Assembly: GCA_035063765.1 (NCBI GenBank)
Contig: JAPSFT010000001.1
Coordinates: forward strand, 71,497 to 135,496
From: Deltaproteobacteria bacterium
Lineage (GTDB): Bacteria; Myxococcota_A; UBA9160; PR03
DNA length: 64,000 bases
Reading direction: 5' to 3'
This document shows, piece after piece, positions 4,443-15,407 of this stretch. Made by a program: the position numbers and the translations under genes. Each line of letters starts with the position of its first letter. The stretch's first letter is position 1. The notes beneath the pieces are model-generated. The model ran no database searches and had not been told where the DNA came from. It saw nothing but the letters and a program-made list of their open reading frames with translations.

Positions 4443-4519
4443 TGGCGCCCCCGGGCTGACTCGAACAGCCGACACGCGGTTTAGGAAACCGCTGCTCTAT
4501 CCATCTGAGCTACGGGGGC
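4443..4519 (-). tRNA. tRNA-Arg (anticodon CCT)
   Basis: A full cloverleaf on the minus strand: acceptor stem GCCCCCG/CGGGGGC, D-arm GCTC...GAGC, anticodon stem GCGGT/ACCGC with loop TTCCTAA (anticodon CCT), T-arm GGCTG/CAGCC, discriminator G and encoded CCA. The bases 4481-4519, anticodon loop to 5' end, belong to a repeat that is also found at 13688-13728, so this half was exchanged when the neighbouring element integrated. The integrase gene reads toward the tRNA on the same strand, 44 bases upstream. Confidence 0.95.
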
Positions 4520-4521
4520 GG
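4481..4521. repeat. Left attachment repeat, inside tRNA-Arg
   Basis: A 41 bp sequence identical to 13688-13728. It begins exactly at the anticodon loop and runs through the D-arm and the 5' acceptor strand to 2 bases beyond the tRNA 5' end. It completes the functional tRNA with the chromosomal 3' half (4443-4480). Confidence 0.93.
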
Positions 4522-4563
4522 AAGTCCAGAACCTAACGAAAGTCGGGCACTTGGCGCGAGCGC

Positions 4564-5829
4564 TCATGCTGACGCTCCGTCCGTTTTCGCGAGGTGGGGG
4601 GACTTGTGGGGGGACTCGATCGCCTCGATTCGCGCGATCAGGTCCGCCGGGACCTCTCCCGGCTCCACCTCGAGCGCCCGGCGGTAGGCCCCGGCGCCGG
4701 CCCAGGTGGCGTAGTGGCGCGCCGTCGTGGCCACGTCCTGATGCCCGAGTTGGCCGCTGATGTACCCGAGCTGGATGCCCGCGGTCAGGAGTTGCGAGGC
4801 GAACGTATCGCGAAGATCCTTCGGCGTTCGGCCCGCGAGCCCGGCGGCAGCGCAGATCCCCTCGAAGTGCCGCCCCTGGTAGTTGCGGTGGATGTAGCCC
4901 GGGAGCACGCGGGCTGAGGGCTCCGGCTGCCCCTGCGCCACGTAGAACTCCCGCAGGAGCCGCCGCAGGCGGCGCGAGAGCGCCACCTCCCGGCTTCGGC
5001 CGCTCTTCGGGGCCTCCTCGTACTTGCCCCGGGCCACGCTCGCGCGGATCACGAGCGCCCGGGTCACGTCGTCAGGGTCCCCGCCCCAGCGCACGTCCCG
5101 CCAGCGAAGCCCGGCCACCTCGCCAGCGCGCAGGCCAGCGTCGAGCATGAGCAGGGTCGCGACGTGCGAAGCCTGCGCTTCGCGCCGGGGGCGCCCGTTC
5201 CCGAAGCGCCGCTCGTACTCCACGCGCGAGGCGGTCACCAGCGCCCCGAGCTGCGCCGGCTCCTCGATCGGCCGGATGCTGCCGCCCTGCGCGGCCTCGG
5301 CCCGGCCCCGCTTCGAGCGGCGGCGCCGGCGGAGCGTCCCCCGGAACGTGTCGACCGGGTTCGCGTCGATCAGCTCGAGGTCCACGGCGTAGCCGAACAC
5401 GCCCGAGAGCGCGGAAAGCAGCGTCAGGCCCGTTCGCTCGTGTCGCCCGCGGCCTTCCACCTCGCGATACCACCAGTCGAGCAGGGTCGCGCGCCGGATG
5501 TCGCTCGCGCGCATCGCGCCGAAGTAGCGGCGAAGCTCACCGTCCGCGCCGAGCACGCGGTCGCGATCGTCCCGCGTCGTGCCCGACAGGTGGCCGGTCG
5601 CTTCCTTGAGGTAGCGCTCGGCCAGGGCGCCAAAGGTGTGCGCGGCCTCGCGGCCGGCGCGCTCCGCCCGCTTCCGCAAGTAGGCATCCCGCACCGCCGC
5701 CGCCGCATCCCAGTCGGCCTCTTCGGTGGAGAAGCGCACGCGCTGGCCGTCGAGCACGGCCTCGAAGTAGACCACGGCCCCGCGTCGGGTCAGGTTCCGG
5801 TACTTCGCGCCCTTCGGCTTCGCCTTCAT
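4564..5829 (-). CDS. int: Tyrosine-type site-specific recombinase (integrase)
   Basis: A 421-residue protein. The ATG at 5829 is chosen because GAGGAG lies just upstream; an upstream ATG at 5940 lacks support. There is an arm-binding type N-terminal region, a SAM-like core-binding domain, and a catalytic domain with box I DAGLRAGEVAGLRW, a Lys region (APKSGRSREVAL), LRDTFAS in place of the usual HxxR segment, LGHQDVATTARHY with His and the terminal nucleophile Tyr. The Asp replacing His in LRDTF occurs in many phage integrases. Its 3' end overlaps a repeat pair that may be an arm site, and the gene points at the tRNA it integrated into. Confidence 0.95.
   Translation of the reverse strand: MKAKPKGAKYRNLTRRGAVVYFEAVLDGQRVRFSTEEADWDAAAAVRDAYLRKRAERAGREAAHTFGALAERYLKEATGHLSGTTRDDRDRVLGADGELRRYFGAMRASDIRRATLLDWWYREVEGRGRHERTGLTLLSALSGVFGYAVDLELIDANPVDTFRGTLRRRRRSKRGRAEAAQGGSIRPIEEPAQLGALVTASRVEYERRFGNGRPRREAQASHVATLLMLDAGLRAGEVAGLRWRDVRWGGDPDDVTRALVIRASVARGKYEEAPKSGRSREVALSRRLRRLLREFYVAQGQPEPSARVLPGYIHRNYQGRHFEGICAAAGLAGRTPKDLRDTFASQLLTAGIQLGYISGQLGHQDVATTARHYATWAGAGAYRRALEVEPGEVPADLIARIEAIESPHKSPHLAKTDGASA
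4594..4616. repeat. Left arm-type repeat pair (GTGGGGGGACT x2)
   Basis: Two copies of GTGGGGGGACT, 12 bases apart, inside the 3' end of the integrase gene and about 73 bases from the attachment core. The same double motif, in the same orientation, occurs at 13550-13572 near the other end (21 of 23 bases identical). The position and pairing suggest integrase arm-binding or excisionase sites. Confidence 0.6.
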
Positions 5830-5962
5830 GGTTGCTCCTCGTTCGGCGCCGCATCCGCGGGCACCCGTCGGGTGAGAGGCTACGTCAGAAACGGCCCAGC
5901 CCAGCAACCCCCCTTGCGCGCATCTCGGGTGCGCCGGCACGTTCGGGCTCGGGGGGTGCGGC

Positions 5963-6475
5963 TTGAACGCCGATCAGGCCGTGTGGCGCTACCACCGCCT
6001 GCGCGCGGGTCTCTCGGCGCCGCGGAGCCAGGATGCCGCCGCCGTGCGCGGCTATCTGCTCGCGGCGCGCTGCACCTGCGGAGGCGAGGAGCGCCACGAA
6101 GTGCACAGCGCGCGCGGGCGCGCATGGGTCATGCGCTGCGCGCGCTGCGGACGCGCCTGGCGCCGGGAGCTCGCCTTCGTGCCGCGCGCCGCGATCCAGG
6201 GCGGACGCACCGTGCGCGAGCCCGCGGCGCTCGCCGATCTGGCGACGCTCGCCCGCTGCCTCGAGACGCTCGACCCCTGGCAGCGGCGCGTGATCGAGCA
6301 CTACGTCGCCTGGCCGGGCCCGGGCCGCGCCGACACGGGCATCGCACTCCTCGCGAGCGAACACTGGGCCGAGGCGCCCTTCGCGTGGACGCAGCACCGG
6401 GTCCGCCTGCTGCTGCGCACGGCGCGCGAGGCGCTCGACGCCGAGCTCGCCCGCCGCGGCCTCGCGCAGCACTAG
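5963..6475 (+). CDS. Zinc-ribbon / HTH-like protein of the element
   Basis: A 170-residue protein, the only rightward gene in the element, starting at TTG 5963 and divergent from the integrase. Two CxC/CxxC knuckles (CTCG near residue 37 and CARC near 59) suggest a zinc ribbon. The C-terminal 65 residues (LDPWQRRVIEHY...TQHRVRLLLRTAREAL) resemble a sigma-region-4 or ArpU/Q-type helix-turn-helix. The combination suggests a transcription activator or antiterminator of late genes, but this is inference; no named family is certain. Its 3' end overlaps the stop of the convergent gene at 6472. Confidence 0.55.
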   Translation: MNADQAVWRYHRLRAGLSAPRSQDAAAVRGYLLAARCTCGGEERHEVHSARGRAWVMRCARCGRAWRRELAFVPRAAIQGGRTVREPAALADLATLARCLETLDPWQRRVIEHYVAWPGPGRADTGIALLASEHWAEAPFAWTQHRVRLLLRTAREALDAELARRGLAQH

Positions 6476-6696
6476 GAGCGCCCCTCGATTCGCGCCTGCA
6501 AGCGCTCGCGCATCGCCTCCGGGTCGAGCTCGAGCGCCGCGCACCAGAACTCGCAGCGCGGGCCGCGCAGGAAGTCGAGCGCCGCAGCGCGGGCGGCCTC
6601 CGCCGCGGCGGGCCCGGGAGGCCGCATGGCGTCGTTCACGGCGTGCTCGAGGAGCCCCGCCGCGAGCCGGCGGACGTCCTCGCCGCTGAGCTCCAT
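6472..6696 (-). CDS. Small conserved-looking phage-type protein, 74 aa
   Basis: Starts at ATG 6696, two bases after the stop of the upstream terminase-like gene, so it is probably translationally coupled. It is helical, with a CEFWC segment near residue 49. The function is not known. The position directly after the packaging-type gene suggests a head or packaging accessory role. Confidence 0.55.
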   Translation of the reverse strand: MELSGEDVRRLAAGLLEHAVNDAMRPPGPAAAEAARAAALDFLRGPRCEFWCAALELDPEAMRERLQARIEGRS

Positions 6697-6698
6697 CG

Positions 6699-7163
6699 TC
6701 ACGGCGCCTTCCGCTTGCGCGCCACGAGCCGCGGGCGCGGCGGCGTCGCGAGCGCCTCGAGCGCCTCGCGGACGAGCTCGCCGAGGGCGGCCTGCAGCGC
6801 CGGCACCGATGCGAGGCCTACGAGCAGCGGGGCCCACCGCGCAGGGAGCGCCCGGAGGTGCCGGGCGACGTGCGCCCTCGCGCCGGCGACAGCCTCGCGC
6901 GCGGCCTGCGCGCCGACGAGCTCGCTGCGGAGCCGCTCGTTCGCCATCGCCTGCGCGTCGGCCTTCTCCTTCGCGAGCCGCGTCCACTCCCGGAGCCGGA
7001 CCGTGCGCGCGTCCTCGCGGCTGCGCGCCCGGGCCTCGAGCACGGCCTGGGCCGCCGCCAGGTCCTCGCGGGTGCGGATCGGGCGCACGATGCCGTCGGC
7101 CAGGAGGCGCCGAAGGTGCCGCTCGCTGATGCCGAGGGCCGTCGCGGCCTCACGCTGGCGCAT
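6699..7163 (-). CDS. Putative terminase small subunit, Nu1-like
   Basis: A 154-residue protein. Residues 4-28 form a MerR/Nu1-like winged helix-turn-helix (REAATALGISERHLRRLLADGI), followed by a charged coiled-coil (ARSREDARTVRLREW, AKEKADAQAMANERLRSEL) and a basic C-terminus. This HTH-plus-coiled-coil layout is typical of Nu1-type small terminases, which recognise cos DNA. The gene lies 3' of the capsid gene. It could also be a different HTH regulator. No large terminase is present in the element. Confidence 0.55.
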   Translation of the reverse strand: MRQREAATALGISERHLRRLLADGIVRPIRTREDLAAAQAVLEARARSREDARTVRLREWTRLAKEKADAQAMANERLRSELVGAQAAREAVAGARAHVARHLRALPARWAPLLVGLASVPALQAALGELVREALEALATPPRPRLVARKRKAP

Positions 7164-7206
7164 GGTCTACACCCCCTCGCGTCGGACGGACGGACACGGG
7201 TTTCGC

Positions 7207-7234
7207 GGGCCGGCGCCTAGGCCTAGCCGGCGCG
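7207..7234. other. Palindromic tract upstream of the small-terminase-like gene
   Basis: Between two genes of the element lies CTAGGCCTAG, a perfect palindrome, flanked on both sides by the self-complementary sequence GCCGGC. It may be an operator or an attenuating hairpin ahead of the terminase-like gene. Confidence 0.3.
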
Positions 7235-7285
7235 CGCGCGTACCCGCTTTCCGAACCCCCAGGAAGGACCCGCCCTCGCTGCTCC

Positions 7286-7588
7286 TCAATGGAGCCGGCC
7301 GCGCGCGAGGAGCGCGCCGAGCCGCGGCGCCGTTGCGGGGTCGGCCAGAAGCTCCGCCCCCTTCTCGCGCGCGACGAGGTCGATGCAGGCATCGACGAGC
7401 TCGTGTGCCTCGACCGCGCGCACCGGCTCCGCCTCGAGCGGGAGCAGGGCCCCGTAGAGGCGCAGCCCGCCCGCCAGGAGCGCCGCCAGGTGCTCGGGCT
7501 CGAGGAGTGCGCCGAGCTCGCGCAGCGGGATCAGCACCGGCTCGGGCGTCTCGTAGGCGGCGCGCAGCCGCGGCAGATCCCATTGCAT
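7286..7588 (-). CDS. Uncharacterised small protein downstream of the capsid gene, 100 aa
   Basis: An acidic, mostly helical 100-residue protein (ATG 7588) rich in Leu and Ala, with no recognisable motif. In phage head modules the gene directly after the capsid often encodes a head-tail connector or decoration protein; nothing in this sequence proves that. The neighbours on the same strand are the protease-capsid fusion upstream and the terminase-like gene downstream. Confidence 0.5.
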   Translation of the reverse strand: MQWDLPRLRAAYETPEPVLIPLRELGALLEPEHLAALLAGGLRLYGALLPLEAEPVRAVEAHELVDACIDLVAREKGAELLADPATAPRLGALLARGRLH

Positions 7589-7667
7589 CCGTGTGTACCT
7601 CTCGAGCTCACCCGCCCGCGCCGGCCGTGATGGGGGCAGCCGGCGCGAGCGGGTGGCCCTGACGCGC

Positions 7668-9467
7668 TCAGGTGGTCGTTGCGTCCGTCAGGATCGCGAA
7701 CGACTCGGGGTGCCGGACCGCCACGTCGACGTCATAGAACGCGCGCAGCACGAGGCCGCCCGAGTCGGCGAGCGTGATCGGATCAGTCGTCACGTCGAGC
7801 ACGCCCCATTCGCCGATCAGCAGATCGCGCCAGTTGCCGAAGATGATGGCCGAGCAGACGGCGCCGCTCGAGCCCTTCACGAGGTTCGAGGGCACCTGGT
7901 TCGAGACCGCGGCGCGGCTGCCGTTCAGGAGCCCGAACCCGGGCAGCGTGCCCGCCGGGTGCTCCCACACGAATTCGGCGGTATCCGTGGCCTTCTCCGT
8001 CGTCTTGAGCTTGCTACGCACTTTCGCGTTCGTGAGGTAGGCGAGCGAGCCCACGTCGGCGTTGTCCGCCGCGACCTCGCGCTCGAGCGCCACGACGTGC
8101 GCCCAGGTGGGCGGCCCGCCGTTCGCGCCGATGGCGACGCTCCCGACGCCCGTCGTCCCGAGGATGCCGAGCGGCTGGTTGCCGGCGCCCGAGCCCGCGA
8201 TCGCGGCCAGGTCGACCGCGAGGCCGAGGACGAGCGCCAGGTCGTTGCGCACGAGATGCTCGATGGCCGGCGTACCCTGGAGCAGCATCTTGCGCGTCAC
8301 GTTCGTTCGCGCAGCGACCGTCTTCGGCGTCATCGAGACCGCGTCGAAGCCGGAGTCCGAGGCGGTCACCGTGCCGCCCTCGGCGAGCCATTGCGCCGAG
8401 GCCGCACCGCTCTGGCGCGGGATGTCGACGTCGCCGACGAGCCCCGGGAGGATCGTCGCGCCGAGGGCCCGCACCGCCGCGTTGTTGCGCAGGAGGTCGA
8501 TGAACGAGCCCGCGAGGAGCTCGGTCCCGACGAGCGCCGCGCCCGCCGCGCCGCCGCCCTTCTCGATCGTGCGCGCCTGCGGCGCCGTCAGCACGTCCGG
8601 CGGAACGAAGAACCCGCGCGCCTCGCGGCCGAGCTGCTTCGCGACCGCTTCGGACGCCTCGAGCTCGAGGCCCGCGCTACGCCAGTCGCGCGAGGCGAAG
8701 GCCTTCGCCGCGCGCACGAGCGAGTAGCGCTCGATCTCGCGCCCGCCCATGCCGATGGTCGGCATCTCGAGCGGCTTGGCGGGCGGCACGGCGTTCTTCA
8801 GCGTCCAGGCCTTGAAGTCGCCGCTCGCCCACTCCTCGTTGATCGCGCGCTCGCCCTGCTCGCGCACGTTCCATCGCTCCGCCACCGCGCGGATCTCGGC
8901 GATCCGCTCGCGCTCGAGCTGCGCGGGAGTCTTTCCGTTGGGTTCCATGATCTCGATCCTCTCCTGCGCGCGGCCGATGCCCACGGTCGGGTCGGCCGCG
9001 ATCGCCACAAGCGACACCTCGAACGGCGTCCACCTGGTTGCCGTGTAGGTGTCGCGCTCCTCGCCTTCCTGGCGCTCGACTTGGTCGAGCGAGTACCCGA
9101 TCGAAATCTCCGGTAGGAGGCCCTCGAGGACGTCCGCGAAGAGCTCACGGGCGCGGCGCCCGTTCCCGAACCGCAGGCGCCCGCGCAGGCGCCGGCCCTC
9201 GAGGCGGATCGCCTCGACGCGACCGATGGGCTCGCGCGGATCGTGCGCGAAGAGGAGCGCCAGGCCCCGCTTCGCTCGCGAGAGGTCGACGGCCTCGCGG
9301 GTGTGCCGGAGCACCTCGCGCCCGTACGCCCGCTCGACCGGCTCCTCGCTCGAGAGCGAGGCCTCGACGACGCGCTCGGTGTCGCCCGACGCTCGCTCGC
9401 CGAGCTCGAGCGTGAAGACGCGACGCGCCACGCTACCCCGGGCCGGAGGCCCGCCAGGCTGGCTCAT
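7668..9467 (-). CDS. Fused prohead protease and HK97-fold major capsid protein
   Basis: A 599-residue protein from ATG 9467. Residues 1-165 match the S78 (HK97 gp4-type) maturation protease: catalytic His in LLFAHDPREPIGRV and catalytic Ser in LPEISIGYS. A helical delta-like scaffold segment follows (about 175-270, EPNGKTPAQLERERI). Residues about 300-599 are an HK97-type major capsid domain (AQWLAEGGTVTASD, MTPKTVAARTNVTRKML, GAGNQPLGIL, DVAVRHPESFAIL). The fusion would deliver protease, scaffold and shell as one polypeptide. The gene is the strongest phage marker in the element and looks intact. Confidence 0.92.
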   Translation of the reverse strand: MSQPGGPPARGSVARRVFTLELGERASGDTERVVEASLSSEEPVERAYGREVLRHTREAVDLSRAKRGLALLFAHDPREPIGRVEAIRLEGRRLRGRLRFGNGRRARELFADVLEGLLPEISIGYSLDQVERQEGEERDTYTATRWTPFEVSLVAIAADPTVGIGRAQERIEIMEPNGKTPAQLERERIAEIRAVAERWNVREQGERAINEEWASGDFKAWTLKNAVPPAKPLEMPTIGMGGREIERYSLVRAAKAFASRDWRSAGLELEASEAVAKQLGREARGFFVPPDVLTAPQARTIEKGGGAAGAALVGTELLAGSFIDLLRNNAAVRALGATILPGLVGDVDIPRQSGAASAQWLAEGGTVTASDSGFDAVSMTPKTVAARTNVTRKMLLQGTPAIEHLVRNDLALVLGLAVDLAAIAGSGAGNQPLGILGTTGVGSVAIGANGGPPTWAHVVALEREVAADNADVGSLAYLTNAKVRSKLKTTEKATDTAEFVWEHPAGTLPGFGLLNGSRAAVSNQVPSNLVKGSSGAVCSAIIFGNWRDLLIGEWGVLDVTTDPITLADSGGLVLRAFYDVDVAVRHPESFAILTDATTT

Positions 9468-9841
9468 TGGATGAGTCTCGTTCGGTGAGCTGCGGCGCGG
9501 GTTGCTGTGCTCGCCGCGCTCGGGGCCGGCCGCCAGGCCGGGTGCGGAGTCGCGATCGCGCGCAGGGTGCGCCTGGAGCCCTCGTCCCGCCGGCGGCGAG
9601 CTCCTCGGCGCGGTCCCCCGCGCGGGGTCGTCTCGCTACCTCGGGTCGCGATGGGCTGGGCTCCCGAGCCCATCGCGTCGGCCCCGCGAGTCCGCCGCCC
9701 TCCCGGGCGCCGCCCTCGCGGCGGCTTCCGATCCGCGGCCGGGTCGCTCCCTCCCGGGAGCGACACGCCACCGCGGCCGGCTGCTTGACGGCAGAGGCTA
9801 TCACGGCACGCCAGGAGCGCGAGCATTCGCGTGGCCCTCCT
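9468..9841. other. Structured non-coding tract between annealing protein and capsid genes
   Basis: 374 bases with no convincing gene. It contains an 11 bp perfect stem with a 9-base loop (CGCGATGGGCT 9647-9657 / AGCCCATCGCG 9667-9677), a 9 bp stem with a 4-base loop (GTCGCTCCC 9743-9751 / GGGAGCGAC 9756-9764) flanked by direct copies of CCGCGGCCGG (9733-9742, 9771-9780), and a 12 bp palindrome CCCCGCGCGGGG at 9616-9627. It could hold the head-gene promoter, an RNA, an antitermination site or a packaging site. Confidence 0.5.
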
Positions 9842-10639
9842 TCAGTCGAACGGGTTCCCTTCGCTGGCGGCCGCCGCGCCCGGGCCGTCGGTGAAGGCGC
9901 CCGCGATCGCGGACACGAGCGCGTCGTAGTCGCGCGCGAGCACGTCGCCGGAGTGCTCGTAGCCGTGCGTCGCGAGGAGCGCGCGCACGCGCGCCTCGAC
10001 GTCGGCGCGGTCGAAGCCCTGCGCCGTGCCGGCCTCGGCAGCGACGGCGAACAGGCGCCTACGCTGCGCGTCGCTGATGCGCCGCTCGGCGCCGCCGCTG
10101 CGCGCCGGCCGCTCCGGCGCGCGCGACTGGCGCCGGGGCTCGCGCTCCTCGCGCGCCTCGGCCGAGCGCCGCGAGGGCGGCGCGCAGGCGGCCTGGCCGT
10201 CGTCGTCGTCGTCGGTCGCGATGCCAAGGAGCGCCGCCAAGGCGTAGCGCCGGGCGTAGGTGAGGGCCGAGCCGACCCCCTGCGCGTCAGCGCGCGTGAC
10301 GGGTAGCAGGAGCTCCGTCTCGAGCGCGGCACCCGATGCGTGCAGCACGATCGTGCGCACGCCCGCGCTCCGTGGGTCGGCGACGAGCGGTATCTGCACG
10401 ATGGCCAGCGCGTGCCGCGCGAGCACCGGGCGCGCGAGCTCGAGCACCTGGCCGAGCGTCGCGTAGGCGTAGGAGTAGTTGCCCTTGTCGGTGCGGACGT
10501 CCGCGCGGGCGTCGGCGGCCACGTTGCGGAGCTCGCCGAGGGCGGACACGAGCGCCGCCGCGAGCGTCGGCGCGACGCTGGCGCCCGGGTCGACCGGCGG
10601 CGGGGTCGGCTCCTGGGGGGGCGTCGGGTCATCGGTCAT
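9842..10639 (-). CDS. erf: ERF-family single-strand annealing recombinase
   Basis: A 265-residue protein (ATG 10639). The core GNYSYAYATLGQVLELARPVLARHAL, near residues 45-70, and GVGSALTYARRYALAALLGI, followed by an acidic DDDDDG, are hallmarks of the ERF superfamily, which anneals single strands during phage replication and recombination. A basic linker leads to a C-terminal helical domain ending in the short NPFD tail. The start overlaps the upstream zinc-protein gene by 11 bases. Confidence 0.9.
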   Translation of the reverse strand: MTDDPTPPQEPTPPPVDPGASVAPTLAAALVSALGELRNVAADARADVRTDKGNYSYAYATLGQVLELARPVLARHALAIVQIPLVADPRSAGVRTIVLHASGAALETELLLPVTRADAQGVGSALTYARRYALAALLGIATDDDDDGQAACAPPSRRSAEAREEREPRRQSRAPERPARSGGAERRISDAQRRRLFAVAAEAGTAQGFDRADVEARVRALLATHGYEHSGDVLARDYDALVSAIAGAFTDGPGAAAASEGNPFD

Positions 10640-11003
10640 GGCGTGTCTCCCTCTGGCGCATGAGCGCCTCGATCTGCCTGCGCCCGCCGGCCCGCCGCGG
10701 CTGGGGTCTCGGCCTGGCGGCGAGCCCACGCAGGCGGTCGGTCTCGAGGGCCTCGCAGCGGGTGCAGCGCACCGGCGCCCCGAGCTGCGGGTGCCGGCGG
10801 CGGAAGGTCGGCTCGTCGCAGGCGCAGCACTCGACGAGCGGCAGGTGGGCGTCGTCACGCCGGGACACCTCCCCCTCTTGGGTGGCCCGGCTCGGGTGTC
10901 CCGAGTGTCCCCCCTCCGTAGGAGGGGACACCTCGGGACACCGGGACACCGGGGGTGTCCCGAGTGTCCGGGACACCTCGGGACACGCGGGACACTCCAG
11001 CAT
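10629..11003 (-). CDS. Zinc-binding small protein overlapping an iteron tract
   Basis: A 124-residue frame whose ATG overlaps the helicase stop (TGATG at 11001-11005). The C-terminal half has two Cys pairs (CCAC and CTRC) spaced like a zinc ribbon. The N-terminal part is low-complexity, encoded by the GGGACAC repeat cluster, and repeats CPEVS twice. A shorter version starting at an internal GTG (near 10867) just before the zinc ribbon is possible. The role is unknown; it lies between helicase and annealing protein in the replication block. Confidence 0.5.
   Translation of the reverse strand: MLECPACPEVSRTLGTPPVSRCPEVSPPTEGGHSGHPSRATQEGEVSRRDDAHLPLVECCACDEPTFRRRHPQLGAPVRCTRCEALETDRLRGLAARPRPQPRRAGGRRQIEALMRQRETRHDR
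10862..10995. repeat. GGGACAC heptamer cluster (iteron-like)
   Basis: Ten exact heptamers in 134 bases: GGGACAC at 10862, 10925, 10935, 10943, 10970, 10980 and 10989, and its complement GTGTCCC at 10896, 10905 and 10955, with one imperfect copy at 10964. Most neighbouring copies are 8-10 bases apart, close to one helical turn. The cluster lies directly downstream of the helicase gene, the position of the replication origin in several satellite families. Confidence 0.75.
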
Positions 11004-12493
11004 CAGAGCACCTCCAGGCCGCTCTCGGGCAGCAGGCGGAATCGATCCGGCAGCTCGTCGGCGATCCGGCGCGCGAGCGCCTTCGCGTCCGTGCGGCGCT
11101 TGCCCGAGGGCTTCCTCTCGGGCGCGATCTCGAACAGGTGCCGCGCCAGGTCGGTCACGGTGTAGGAGCCCGACTCGAGGTCGAGCAGGCGTGCCCGGAG
11201 CGCCTCGGCCTCGGCGCAGGTCGGCGGCCCGGCCAGCTCCCAGCGGATCACACGGTCGCCGTGGGTCGCCGTCGCGAAGTAGAGCTCGGAGAGCGGGGGC
11301 ACGTCGTTGACGACCGCGTCGAGCATCCGCACGCCCGGCTCGATCTCCCAGAGGGTCGCCACGCTGCGCGCGAGCTGCGCCAGGACGGCGCTCCCGCGGA
11401 TCTCCTCCATCCGCTCGCCCTTCGTCAGCTCGGCGGCCGGCTTCGCCTTCGGCGGGCGCTTGCGCGGGTGGTGGATCAGGACGCCCGACGGGCCGAGCGA
11501 CTCGGCGATCCGGTCGAGCTGATCGATCGCGAGGCGCGCGCCCTCGTCGTCGTTCACGGTCAGTCCCGGCGGCAAGAAGTGCTGGTAGGGGTCGATCACG
11601 AACACGTCGTAGCGGCCGTCCGCGATCGTGTTGCCGAGCACCTCCACGCCATGATCGTCGAGCGGGAGCGCGCGCTTCTCCTTGCCGATGATCGCGACGC
11701 GGCCGTCCATCCATGCGCCGTCCGGGGCGAGCGCGGCGAGCTTGCGGACGATTGACAAGGTGGTGTCGTCCTTGCTCACGATCAGGGCGCGCATCGGGTC
11801 GCGGCCGTCGTGGCGGCCCGTCCAGGGCTCGCGGCCGTAGATCAGGTCCACGACTACCCGGACGATCGAGGTCGTCTTGCCGATGCCTGTCTGCCCCGCG
11901 TAGACGGTCGTCAGGCCGGGGTAGAGGACATGCGTCGCGACGGGGACGATCGAGGGCGCCGCGGCTAGCGTGGCGAGCTGCTCGCGGGTGGGCACCAGCT
12001 CGACGTAGCTCCGGATGCGCGGCTCCTGCGCGCCCAGCTCCGACGCGATCGCGCCGAGCTCCCGGCGCGCCACCTCGCGCAGATCGTCGGGCGTCGCGGG
12101 CTCGACGAGCCGCGCCGCCAGGAGCCGCTCGCGGCGCTCGAGCGCCTCGCGATGGACGGCGCGCGCGTGCGCCAGGACGTGCGCACCCGTCGCCGCGCCA
12201 TCGGCCAGCTCGGCGAGCCGCACCGCCGCACGGTGCGCGTCGCCCGTGGACTCGCGCGACATCGCGGCGTGTAGGGTCGGTAGGTCGATCGGGTCGCCGC
12301 GGTCGGCCAGGTCGAGCATCGCCTGCGCGACCCGCGCGAGGAGCGGGTCGGCGAGGTCCGCGGGCGTCGCGATCGCGAGCGCCTCGCGCACCCGCTCGGG
12401 GTCGCCCCCCACGAGGAGGCCGCCGAGCAGGGACTCCGCCGGCGACGGGATCGCGCGGTCGGGGGGCGGCGCTACACTTGCGGGCACCTGCAT
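11003..12493 (-). CDS. Replicative helicase-like ATPase (DnaB-N domain plus RepA-type motor)
   Basis: A 496-residue protein from ATG 12493. Residues 15-110 resemble the DnaB N-terminal domain (SPAESLLGGLLVGG, ADRGDPIDLPTLHAAM). From about 185 there is a RecA-like motor with Walker A GQTGIGKTT, Walker B VFVIDPY, a GVLIHHPRKR sensor segment and RGSAVLAQLARSV, as in RepA-type helicases of plasmids and phage. The C-terminus looks like a winged helix. It would unwind the element's origin. It is translationally coupled to the zinc protein gene. Confidence 0.88.
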   Translation of the reverse strand: MQVPASVAPPPDRAIPSPAESLLGGLLVGGDPERVREALAIATPADLADPLLARVAQAMLDLADRGDPIDLPTLHAAMSRESTGDAHRAAVRLAELADGAATGAHVLAHARAVHREALERRERLLAARLVEPATPDDLREVARRELGAIASELGAQEPRIRSYVELVPTREQLATLAAAPSIVPVATHVLYPGLTTVYAGQTGIGKTTSIVRVVVDLIYGREPWTGRHDGRDPMRALIVSKDDTTLSIVRKLAALAPDGAWMDGRVAIIGKEKRALPLDDHGVEVLGNTIADGRYDVFVIDPYQHFLPPGLTVNDDEGARLAIDQLDRIAESLGPSGVLIHHPRKRPPKAKPAAELTKGERMEEIRGSAVLAQLARSVATLWEIEPGVRMLDAVVNDVPPLSELYFATATHGDRVIRWELAGPPTCAEAEALRARLLDLESGSYTVTDLARHLFEIAPERKPSGKRRTDAKALARRIADELPDRFRLLPESGLEVL

Positions 12494-12544
12494 CCGTGTC
12501 CTCGACCCCGCCGTGGTCTCGTCGCCGCGGCGGGGTCACTCGTC

Positions 12545-12817
12545 TCAGCCCGCGCTCCTCGCCTCGCGCTCGAGCACGCGCTCGGCGACGGCCTCGGCGC
12601 GCGCCGTCGTGCGCGCGGCCTCGCGGCGCCACCACGCCTCGACGTCGACGCGCAGGACGCGGATCGCGCGCCCGCGCCGGACGCCGGGGATCTCGCCGCG
12701 GCGGATCAGCTCACCCAGGTACGCGCGCGACAGGCCGTACACGCGCTCTACCCCGCGCATGGACAGCGTCGCGCGGTCGTGGTCGCGCTCGATGATCGGT
12801 CGAGTGTCGCGGGGCAT
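12545..12817 (-). CDS. AlpA/excisionase-like helix-turn-helix protein
   Basis: A 90-residue protein from ATG 12817 with a MerR-type winged HTH (MRGVERVYGLSRAYLGELIRRGEIPGVRRG, shown here only to locate residues 20-49) followed by VDVEAWWRR, the standard ending of AlpA/Xis-type DNA-binding domains. In satellites and integrative elements such proteins act as excisionase or activate the integrase. It lies directly upstream of the helicase. Confidence 0.78.
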   Translation of the reverse strand: MPRDTRPIIERDHDRATLSMRGVERVYGLSRAYLGELIRRGEIPGVRRGRAIRVLRVDVEAWWRREAARTTARAEAVAERVLEREARSAG

Positions 12818-12875
12818 GGGCGCACACTGCGCCGATTGCGCGCGGCGTGCACGTCAGAACTTGGTGCCACCTTTT

Positions 12876-13448
12876 TCATCGTGCGCGCGGCGGCAGCGGC
12901 TTCCGAGGTGTCGGGTCGTGGTCCCGGGCTGCGTGGAGCGCCGCCAGGAGCGCGCTCTCACTGTTCGCCGCGTAGAGCTCGCGGAGCCTGGCGATCGCGG
13001 CTCCTGGGGCCAGCGGGCAGCCCGGGACGCCCACCTCGAGCGGAGCGCGCGGGCCGGATTCGATCGCGAGGCGCACGATGCCCTGCCCCTGCGTGAGCGC
13101 GCGGTAGGCGGCGATGAGCTCGCGCGGGTCGCGCTTGCGGGGCCGCTGCCAGCCCATCGCGCGCTGGACGCGCTGGAGCTTCTGGCGGTCGGTTGCCTCG
13201 GAGCCCAGCACCTCGAGCGCCAGGCGCTCGCGTGCCGCGCGATCGTCGCCCTGCGCGTGGAGGCGGCCGAGCTCGGCCGCCATCTCCTCGCCTAGCGCGC
13301 GCAGCGCAGCGAGCACGGTCGCGCGCGAGGCGCCGGTCTCGATCGCCTGGCCGAGCGCCTGGTAGGCCGCTGCCGTTCGCGCGCGGCCGCGGAAGCGGCC
13401 GATGCTCTCCGCCATCCGGCGGAGCCGTCGCATCTCCGGGTCGGACAC
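12876..13448 (-). CDS. Uncharacterised helical protein, first gene of the element's left-directed block
   Basis: 190 residues if translation starts at GTG 13448, which has GAGGAG 10 bases upstream; the frame remains open to 13610. It is rich in Arg, Ala and Leu, with helical segments (RARTAAAYQALGQAI, RKRDPRELIAAYRAL) and no Cys/His cluster. No family is recognised. Its position at the head of the replication block suggests a regulator or replication accessory. Confidence 0.5.
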   Translation of the reverse strand: MSDPEMRRLRRMAESIGRFRGRARTAAAYQALGQAIETGASRATVLAALRALGEEMAAELGRLHAQGDDRAARERLALEVLGSEATDRQKLQRVQRAMGWQRPRKRDPRELIAAYRALTQGQGIVRLAIESGPRAPLEVGVPGCPLAPGAAIARLRELYAANSESALLAALHAARDHDPTPRKPLPPRAR

Positions 13449-13687
13449 GCTGCCGCTGCTCCTCGCGGCGCTCCGGTGGGAGCCTCGGGGCAGGGAGCGG
13501 AGCGGCTCCCGTTCGGCTGGCCGGCCTAGCCCCGAGGCGAATCGCTCAGGTGGGGGGACTACTGGGGGGACTCCCCTCATTCGTCGCCACACCGGGCCAT
13601 GTAAGGCCATTGCGAGGGGATGCGCAACCCCGCGGAATCACAGGAAGTCGAGTAGAGACGCAGAGATGCGTCAGACACTCGAGCCCA
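13449..13687. other. Right-end control region of the element
   Basis: Non-coding stretch between the first element gene and the right attachment repeat. It holds the right arm-type repeat pair (13550-13572), a GACGCA-GAGA-TGCGTC hairpin at 13657-13672, and probably the promoter of the leftward operon. Confidence 0.45.
13550..13572. repeat. Right arm-type repeat pair
   Basis: GTGGGGGGACT followed 12 bases later by CTGGGGGGACT, same orientation as the left pair at 4594-4616, and 115 bases from the right attachment core. Candidate integrase or excisionase arm sites. Confidence 0.6.
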
Positions 13688-13728
13688 TTAGGAAACCGCT
13701 GCTCTATCCATCTGAGCTACGGGGGCGG
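13688..13728. repeat. Right attachment repeat: orphan 5' half of tRNA-Arg
   Basis: Identical to 4481-4521. It holds the 5' acceptor strand, D-arm and anticodon loop of the tRNA on the minus strand, but no 3' half follows. It is the chromosome's original 5' half, still joined to the original upstream sequence. Confidence 0.93.
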
Positions 13729-13737
13729 GAGGCGGGA

Positions 13738-13767
13738 AGGCTAGCGACCGTGGGGACTCGTTGCGAA
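13738..13767 (-). promoter_or_regulatory. Possible original tRNA-Arg promoter, now driving a half tRNA
   Basis: On the minus strand TTCGCA and TAGCCT are separated by 18 bases and lie just upstream of the orphan tRNA 5' half. A weak match, supported mainly by its position. Confidence 0.3.
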
Positions 13768-13904
13768 CGATCCTCGTGGCGATCCCTCTCGGGTGAGCGA
13801 AGGGGACGGAGCCGAAGGCAGCGCCCATCAGCTTGTGGACTCGTTCCTTCGAGTTCGAGTCGGAACGACGCTCCCGTGCGTCGAAGAGGTGACGGGGGTG
13901 CGCC

Positions 13905-14327
13905 GTGCCTGGTCTCCTCCTCGCCGCCCTGCGGGTCGGCTCCCTACTCGTGCTCGGAGCGCCAGCGCTCGCGGGTGACGACTACACCGGTTCCATCGCG
14001 CCGGGTCTGCACCCGCGCCTGACGGCCGCGACGGTCGCGGATCTCGTCGGGGCCGGCGGCAGCGCCGCGCCCGCGGGCGTGCGCCGGATCACGGCGTTGG
14101 AGTGCGTCCGTGGGGACGACATCGGGCGAGCGGGAAGCACGGCGCCCTTCTGGATCGTACGTGTGGAGGGCCATTTCGTGAACCTGCGCACGCCGCCGGG
14201 GTGCCCCGCGCAGGTGGCTCCCGAGGGCTTCTACGTGATCGACGATGCGACCGGCAGCATGGTCGCCCGGGGATTCGTCGGCGGGCGATTCACTGGGCCT
14301 TGCGACCGGCTGCAGAAGGGTCGGTAG
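13905..14327 (+). CDS. Small secreted protein of unknown function
   Basis: A 140-residue protein beginning at GTG 13905 with a hydrophobic signal peptide (LLLAALRVGSLLVLGAPALAG) and likely cleavage near residue 23. The mature part has three Cys residues (ECVRGD, PGCPAQ, GPCDRL) and a compact, probably beta-rich core. No family is recognised. It is the first host gene past the element and converges with the methyltransferase gene. Confidence 0.55.
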   Translation: MPGLLLAALRVGSLLVLGAPALAGDDYTGSIAPGLHPRLTAATVADLVGAGGSAAPAGVRRITALECVRGDDIGRAGSTAPFWIVRVEGHFVNLRTPPGCPAQVAPEGFYVIDDATGSMVARGFVGGRFTGPCDRLQKGR

Positions 14328-14375
14328 ACGCGGACCGGTCTCGGCTCGGCCGCGCTGAACGCGGTTCGCGCTGCG

Positions 14376-14846
14376 CTACAGCCAGCGCCGCGTCGAGCGC
14401 TTGTAGGCGAGGTACTCGTCGCCGAACTTGGCCTCGAGGTAGGCCTCCTCGTGACGGATCGCCGTCGCGTAGACGATGGCGAGGACGAGCGGGATCGCGA
14501 GCAGGACCCAACCGTTCCCCCAGCCCCAGCCGATCGCGAGGAGCAGCAGCGCCATGCCCACGTACATGGGATTGCGCGAGCGGCGGTAGACGCCGCTCGA
14601 GACGATCGAGGGCGTGCTCTTCCACGGCTTCGGGTCCTGGCCGGTGCGGCGGAAGAGGCCGAGCGCGCCGGCCAGGAAGGCGACGCCGAGCGCCGCACCG
14701 AGCATCGCCCCCACCGCCCGCGCGGCGGGCGAGAGCGGAAGCCGCAGGGGCACGATCCCGTGGAGCCCGCCAGCGACGAGCAGGGCGAGCAGGTACACGA
14801 GCGGCGGGGGCAGCCGGACCTTCGCACCGTCGCGCTCGGCCGTCAT
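14376..14846 (-). CDS. Isoprenylcysteine/phospholipid methyltransferase-type membrane protein
   Basis: A 156-residue integral membrane protein with about four hydrophobic segments. The conserved C-terminal signature is clear: GVYRRSRNPMYVGM, then RHEEAYLEAKFGDEYLAYKRSTRRW, as in the ICMT/PEMT family that binds S-adenosylmethionine at the membrane face. Short bacterial members act on small lipids or amines; the substrate here is unknown. It may share a transcript with the secreted protein gene upstream (15407). Confidence 0.8.
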   Translation of the reverse strand: MTAERDGAKVRLPPPLVYLLALLVAGGLHGIVPLRLPLSPAARAVGAMLGAALGVAFLAGALGLFRRTGQDPKPWKSTPSIVSSGVYRRSRNPMYVGMALLLLAIGWGWGNGWVLLAIPLVLAIVYATAIRHEEAYLEAKFGDEYLAYKRSTRRWL

Positions 14847-14858
14847 CGCGGCGCCGCT

Positions 14859-15407
14859 CTAGTTCGCGCCTTCGGTGTTGGTGCGCTGCGCTTCGTCGAT
14901 CTCCTCCTGGGAGAGGCCGATCTCGCGCAGGCGCTTCTGGATCTCTTCGGGCGACATGCGGATCTGGACCATCTTGAGCAGATACCTGGGATCCCCTTCG
15001 CGCGGCTCGAAGGAGAAGACGACGGCGCGGTCGGTGGGGATCGCGGCGACCGCCGACTTGAAGCCCTCCTTGGTGCCGCTGTTGTCGAGGCCGCCGCCCT
15101 TCGAGGCCTTGATGACGGTGCGCTTGAGCACGCTGCCCTCGGGCACCACCTCGAGCTCGAGCTCCTCGCCGCTCTTCAGGCCCGGGGCCGGCTTGCCGGC
15201 GACGCCGCCGCTGCCGAAGCCGCCCGACACCTTGGGGCTCGTGATCTTGACCTTGAAGACGCTCCGGGCCTCGTCGTAGCCGAGCAGCATGCCCTCGGCG
15301 CCGTAGCGCTTGGCCTCGGCGGCCCGGGCGGCCGGCGGGGCGACGAGCAGCGGTGCCAGCGCGAGGCCGAGCACGAGGAAGGCGGGGAGCGGGCGGGCGC
15401 GCAGCAT
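14859..15407 (-). CDS. Exported protein of unknown function
   Basis: 182 residues with a signal peptide (cleavage near AARAAEA) and a good AAGGAG site before ATG 15407. The mature protein has a Gly/Ser-rich region around residues 60-75, a beta-type middle (GEELELEVVPEGSVLKRTVIK) and a C-terminal amphipathic helix (SPEEIQKRLREIGLSQEEIDE). No family is recognised. Periplasmic location is inferred. Confidence 0.6.
   Translation of the reverse strand: MLRARPLPAFLVLGLALAPLLVAPPAARAAEAKRYGAEGMLLGYDEARSVFKVKITSPKVSGGFGSGGVAGKPAPGLKSGEELELEVVPEGSVLKRTVIKASKGGGLDNSGTKEGFKSAVAAIPTDRAVVFSFEPREGDPRYLLKMVQIRMSPEEIQKRLREIGLSQEEIDEAQRTNTEGAN

Follow-up and report, generated by a model that had tools for sequence, protein, structure and literature searches.

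What kind of element carries a capsid gene and a terminase small subunit gene of its own, with no portal, large terminase or tail beside them, and how would such an element be packaged? This question is raised by a 9.2-kb element at positions 4481-13728 of the window, by which the whole analyzed stretch of 64,000 nucleotides from contig JAPSFT010000001.1 (Deltaproteobacteria bacterium; GTDB lineage Myxococcota_A, UBA9160) is meant. The element is probably a capsid-bearing phage satellite which resembles the phage-inducible chromosomal islands (PICIs) and is functional or was so until recently; this reading is based on sequence, and helper phage, capsid size and RNA function are inferred. Its main signs are the integration into a tRNA-Arg gene, an AlpA regulator, a replicative helicase with iterons, an annealing protein, an own protease/capsid protein, an own terminase small subunit (TerS) and a cos-type site.

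Genes were identified by profile search (Pfam, PHROG, NCBIfam), and the gene models rest on homology because our home-made gene caller chooses wrong strands in DNA with a GC content of 75%. An earlier note on this DNA had listed an integrase, an AlpA-like protein, a helicase, an ERF protein, a fused prohead protease/HK97 capsid and a Nu1-like TerS, and all of these were confirmed by profiles. It had also reported no recognisable portal, large terminase (TerL), tail or lysis gene. Indeed, none of the element's proteins matched portal, TerL, connector, tail or lysis families, and the five frames without a family match (74, 100, 124, 170 and 190 aa) are too short to hold a portal or TerL. The features are listed by window coordinates, with the strand wherever one applies; G001 is a genome of the same genus that contains a related element.

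4443-4519, minus strand: tRNA-Arg(CCT), the target gene (ARAGORN), its 5′ half supplied by the element; intact empty counterpart in G001
4481-4521: attL, 41-bp core repeat, exact copy of 13688-13728
4564-5829, minus strand: tyrosine integrase, 421 aa (Phage_integrase 3e-15, PHROG 1 3e-41), 47% identical to that of the G001 element
4592-4617: tandem GTGGGGGGACT sites in a 26-bp repeat inside the 3′ end of int, likely integrase arm-type sites
5963-6475, plus strand: zinc-ribbon-like protein, 170 aa, putative regulator, with a 56% identical homologue in the G001 element, likewise on the opposite strand
6472-6696, minus strand: 74-aa open reading frame (ORF) without credible profile match
6699-7163, minus strand: Nu1-type TerS, 154 aa (PHROG 57 1.3e-13 over nearly the whole length), 51% identical to the G001 TerS
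7224-7273, minus strand: putative cos site, with its core CGGGTCCTTCCTGG at 7259-7272 preceding terS by 109 nt
7286-7588, minus strand: conserved 100-aa ORF between TerS and capsid, 37% identical to the capsid-adjoining ORF of the G001 element, no family match
7668-9467, minus strand: fused prohead protease (S78)/HK97-fold major capsid protein, 599 aa (Phage_capsid 5.6e-39, Peptidase_S78 1.6e-8)
9842-10639, minus strand: ERF-type single-strand annealing protein, 265 aa (ERF 1.3e-19, PHROG 2324 4e-33), absent from the G001 element
10632-11003, minus strand: possible zinc-ribbon ORF, 124 aa, an open frame with two CxxC pairs and uncertain start, overlapping the iterons
10862-10995: iteron array, putative replication origin, with GTGTCCC/GGGACAC in 10 copies adjoining the 3′ end of the helicase gene
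11003-12493, minus strand: DnaB-N/AAA_25 replicative helicase, 496 aa (AAA_25 6e-17, DnaB N 7e-13)
12545-12817, minus strand: AlpA-like excisionase/regulator, 90 aa (HTH_17 4.5e-9, PHROG 66 9e-7)
12876-13448, minus strand: first ORF of the AlpA operon, 190 aa from GTG 13448, directly after the RNA leader; unrelated ORFs take this position in other elements
13449-13537, minus strand: structured leader consisting of int-alpA RNA (Rfam part 13470-13536), pseudoknot strand and Shine-Dalgarno hairpin
13548-13573: second arm-type repeat, matching 4592-4617
13688-13728: attR, displaced 5′ half of tRNA-Arg, from repeat comparison and comparison with the empty site of G001

The ends of the element proved to be as clear as the earlier note had stated. 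They are formed by an exact direct repeat of 41 bp, and the unit between them amounts to 9,207 bp. As the left copy covers positions 1-39 of the tRNA-Arg, integration took place via the 5′ half of this gene, which the element restored; this is the rarer arrangement (159 of 3,919 islands in Islander; PMC4383910). G001 contains an intact tRNA-Arg(CCT), whose left flank is similar to the left side of the element, while the sequence just past the repeat is similar to its right side; by this sequence comparison, the gene is the empty site. About 1.15 kb of the right-flank chromosome (window 13747-14900) is missing in G001 between the tRNA-Arg and the next shared gene. The two 26-bp repeats near the ends are 92% identical, and as their GTGGGGGGACT motif occurs nowhere else in the window they are likely arm-type sites of the integrase. 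An integrase with defined attachment ends belongs to the hallmarks of Gram-negative PICIs, as does an AlpA/MerR-type regulator (PMC6092414), here represented by the protein matching HTH_17 and PHROG 66. The first 48 residues of this protein also match ribosomal protein S14 models (Pfam 30.6 bits, cut-off 27), probably a chance similarity around RRGEIPGVRR. The transcription of all genes in one direction, a further PICI hallmark (PMC6092414), is not found, as the gene of the 170-aa protein opposes all others, also in G001. Profile searches assigned no family to this protein, and its AlphaFold model (pLDDT 57) was too weak for a structure search. P4 Sid/Psu/delta-type genes had no PHROG, Pfam or NCBIfam match in the element, and PADLOC found no defence genes.

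A search with the capsid within the bacterial family led to G001 (contig C44, locus L051), where a collinear element is located; its genes encode an unknown ORF product, AlpA, the helicase, the capsid fusion, a small ORF product, the opposite-strand homologue of the 170-aa protein, TerS and the integrase. The earlier note had suggested looking for the same gene order at tRNA-Arg in related genomes. The order indeed recurs, but at tRNA-Leu, between 64-bp repeats (98% identical) spaced by 8,993 bp, with the tRNA-Arg of G001 being empty. The capsid fusion, which in the window matches PHROG 617 (3e-146) across residues 26-597 of 599, is 58% identical between the two elements, and its residues H75, S122 and E150 are conserved in A2. 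The G001 element lacks ERF and its 170-aa gene has moved past terS, so its history is a separate one. The TerS tree joins the two satellites (90/85), and the prophage of G003, a genome of the same family, comes next (94/96), though no branch of this tree passes both support cut-offs. In the capsid tree they pair as well (91/83), with the G003 prophage branching beside them. G003 and G166 contain ordinary phage head genes, unlike the satellites. Two contigs of G003 (L084 and L052) are seemingly parts of one Nu1/GpA-type prophage (TerS-TerL-gpW; portal-capsid-Hc1), which may serve as a model for a helper. Among the capsid relatives from IMG/VR, those with enough flanking sequence for a judgement were ordinary phages or fragments, in which TerL and portal usually adjoin the capsid gene.

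The putative cos site lies in the intergenic block 7182-7272 upstream of terS, which matches its counterpart ahead of the G001 terS with 74% identity. Over the first 50 bp, the block also matches (82% identity) a part of the G003 prophage contig upstream of TerS-TerL; this part lies downstream of a putative HNH-type gene, named from our own reading of its N-terminus and not from a profile. The core CGGGTCCTTCCTGG precedes terS by 109 nt in the window element and by about 140 nt in G001, and is identical in 14 of 14 positions to the terminal motif of the linear phage Arya record, which ends with ...CGGGTCCTTCCTGGCGGCACTGCCT and starts with TGCGGGGGC. Likewise, the record of phage PPpW-3 ends with ...CGGGTCCTTCCGGG...GCGGGGGCATAGACTC, and its last 13 nt are repeated at its start. 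Linear phage records are usually opened at cos. Since the motif is found at such record ends, the block 7224-7273 is read as a putative phage-type cos site. With at most one mismatch, the motif also occurs within 150 nt of terS in 6 of 16 related phages, compared to 0.12 expected; in these six, among them Persinger, it precedes terS by 108-128 nt. A cos motif at a short distance before terS, like that at the ends of phage genomes, is the arrangement of Nu1/GpA-type packaging and is seen here as well. The cos pattern had no match in the viral sequence scan.

For replication, the ten iteron copies are confined to 134 bp directly after the helicase stop codon, with only one more copy in the 64 kb of the window, and 30 shuffles of the element reached at most six in a stretch of this size. 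At the equivalent place 3′ of the helicase gene, ten copies of CCGTGCC occur in the G001 element and seven of GGGGACC in an element of the more distant genome G084. In Gram-negative PICIs the iterons directly follow the replication gene on its 3′ side (PMC6092414). The array is placed as in PICIs and represents a putative replication origin.

Ahead of the AlpA operon, a block of 87 bp is 91% identical between the window and G001, compared to 65-70% for coding regions at the DNA level. This conserved block at the 3′ end was considered as a packaging site and rejected, as its Rfam match and its position show an RNA leader. The G001 copy scores 45.2 bits against the int-alpA model (RF02996), above the gathering threshold, and like RNAs of this family the leader belongs to a mobile element, where it is placed between the int and alpA genes. 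Matches to int-alpA were found in 9 of 379 genomes of the phylum, and in at least six other loci the RNA directly precedes an ORF, after which come AlpA and, as a rule, a helicase or primase; two matches (L162 and L164) lie outside recognisable elements. Matches of the leader block with E-values above about 1e-3, which appeared in many genomes, were dismissed as GC-rich chance. The leader core had no match in the viral sequence scan, nor was int-alpA found in EcCICFT073 (L166). Complementary changes among 12 sequences (CUCCG/CGGAG, UGCUCG/CGAGCA, CCGCA/UGCGG) show a pairing of the P3 loop with a strand further downstream, which forms a pseudoknot. For this pseudoknot none of 20,000 partner swaps reached the score of the own partners, while the Shine-Dalgarno (P4) hairpin covaries more weakly, with 88 of 20,000 swaps reaching it; as the segments were selected visually and the sequences share ancestry, these counts are indications and not probabilities. 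In minimum-energy folding the leader does not stand out (z -1.6 and -0.5), in contrast to its covariation. Compared to RF02996, the pseudoknot strand and the Shine-Dalgarno hairpin lie at or beyond the model end and are undrawn in the cmscan structure line. We propose that the leader gates the AlpA operon at translation, with transcription attenuation being equally possible. In the open-access literature searched, a single paper names int-alpA, as a list entry (PMC12370729).

Taken as a satellite, the element would respond to infection by a cos phage of the Nu1/GpA type. The 9,207-bp circle would be excised by AlpA and the integrase and replicated by its own helicase from the iterons, with expression of the AlpA-helicase operon being gated by the int-alpA leader and ERF recombination aiding the formation of concatemers. 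The satellite TerS would then bind the satellite cos and recruit the TerL of the helper, while the satellite shell would be built on the helper portal and processed by the satellite's own protease, would take up DNA from one cos to the next and would receive the connectors and tails of the helper. A small head of about T=3 would suit units of 9.0-9.4 kb; if the related 33-44-kb phages are T=7, it would have about 0.28 of their volume and room for 9-12 kb (arithmetic only). Two 13-column alignment stretches between the protease and capsid domains, present in most related phages, are missing from both satellite fusions and mark a possible site of a change in head size.

Several points weigh against this reading. 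The element is known from sequence, and only two close members are known. GpA-type TerL had no match in its own genome or in G001, and PHROG 2 only weak ones (about 22 bits) in its own genome, so that the helper must come from outside or from the missing part of the assembly. TerS and helicase have no relative among 50,697 phage records and the 170-aa protein has none in IMG/VR, and the window leader itself stays with 34.2 bits (E 1e-5) below the gathering threshold of RF02996 (35.8).

A capsid gene in such an element need not build a whole shell. Its product could co-assemble with the helper capsid as a size-redirecting or interfering factor, as with Ccm of SaPIbov5, a phage capsid homologue that gives small heads, and PmCI172, which combines a major capsid protein (MCP) homologue with small heads (PMC6092414). 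Redirection would need at minimum a TerS and a capsid without a portal, and the capsids of satellites and G003 prophage are still related; however, a mere poison would have no need for the maturation protease, the processing region and the full-length fusion, all of which are kept, and we regard this explanation as rather unlikely. Even less can be said for a prophage that decayed by losing its portal, TerL, tail and lysis genes. Phage-type TerS and capsid do exist complete in the same family (G003), but another genome of the genus has, at a different tRNA, a collinear element with the same losses whose conserved proteins are 55-58% identical, and elements of similar size with independent capsid and TerS types recur. 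Moreover, the element retains all of its frames, ends, cos, iterons and leader, and helicase and regulator have no relatives in the phage record collection. Random decay had already been doubted in the earlier note, and the nearest relative being a collinear satellite and no full prophage bears this out; we consider decay very improbable. An equally slim chance is given to a capsid-forming PICI (cf-PICI) after secondary loss of portal and TerL. Capsid, protease and TerS are carried by cf-PICIs (PMC10690885), but their defining portal, TerL and connectors are missing in the element and its relatives, and no cf-PICI-like ancestor was found in the phylum.

Among known systems, the PICI-like satellite comes close to several without matching any. 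EcCICFT073, an E. coli PICI with MCP and decoration genes, and PmCI172 share int, AlpA, a replication gene followed by an iteron origin, and an MCP without portal or TerL (PMC6092414). They differ in having a primase instead of the helicase, while the element has the protease/capsid fusion and its own TerS, which EcCICFT073 lacks. Mycobacterium elements with integrase and major capsid, including phiRv1/phiRv2, were called candidate PICIs (PMC10654092), and this combination in one small element is also found here. Like the element they carry an HK97-type capsid, in many cases together with a helicase and sometimes with a terminase gene, at tRNA or serine-integrase sites; compared by description, they are actinobacterial and have no cos, iteron origin or int-alpA described (PMC10654092). 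The cf-PICIs likewise have an own shell, TerS and protease, but also portal, TerL, connectors and HNH, and with this full head set they are a different kind of element (PMC10690885). SaPIbov5 shares a capsid homologue (Ccm) and cos packaging, but is Gram-positive, has no protease fusion and uses Stl-type control. The earlier note's idea of an undescribed satellite family is supported with a qualification: the element is a new lineage, but of a known capsid-bearing, PICI-like kind, since capsid-bearing satellites without portal and TerL have precedents in Mycobacterium and EcCICFT073. A description outside the open-access literature is possible.

A scan of genome contigs with the two-sequence capsid alignment, based on only two peptide patterns, yielded two loci. 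More distant genomes of the phylum contain tRNA-flanked elements of similar size, all without portal and TerL. That of G070 (9,107 bp) has a capsid gene, that of G084 (9,351 bp) a P27-type TerS and a capsid, and that of G330 (10,284 bp) a Nu1-type TerS together with a protease/capsid fusion assigned to a different PHROG. As these types differ among the elements, capsid and TerS seem to have been acquired more than once. In the G330 element, a C4 antisense RNA (L108:8652-8732, plus strand; RF01695, 51.5 bits, gathering 45) adjoins the capsid gene; C4-type RNAs are known from P1/P4-type immunity. In G028, a serine recombinase/integrase, ERF, a capsid and a helix-turn-helix protein lie together at a contig end (L083:6042-12373), resembling the mycobacterial serine-integrase candidate PICIs. 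A capsid-less cousin occurs in G034 (L158:3684-11938), an 8.2-kb tRNA-Met element with an integrase 51% identical to that of the window element, int-alpA RNA and a DUF3631 primase/helicase, in which no capsid gene was found. G052 contains a serine-recombinase element (L140:8876-15607) with int-alpA RNA, an unknown 454-aa ORF, AlpA and helicase, and its genome also has two GpA-type TerL genes.

A more far-reaching proposal can be made tentatively. The element may belong to an undescribed, widespread satellite class of uncultured deltaproteobacterial-type lineages that brings only shell, TerS and cos of its own and forms hybrid, small-headed virions on the portal, motor and tail of a helper, its induction being gated by a pseudoknotted int-alpA leader which holds the Shine-Dalgarno sequence of the AlpA operon in a hairpin.

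The cos-like site, the iteron array and the structured RNA go beyond the earlier note, and the evidence for cos packaging, an origin and an int-alpA leader is what is new here. The element fills a gap: classical PICIs take the entire virion from a helper, and cf-PICIs bring a whole head. Its own shell and packaging specificity, together with borrowed portal and motor, lead to a clear prediction on head assembly, with an own shell on a foreign portal, and on head size, and the cos motif offers a handle for finding helpers in viromes. The orphan RNA int-alpA is tied to the induction operon of satellite-type elements, by which its function becomes testable; if true, gating by the leader would give this RNA class its function.

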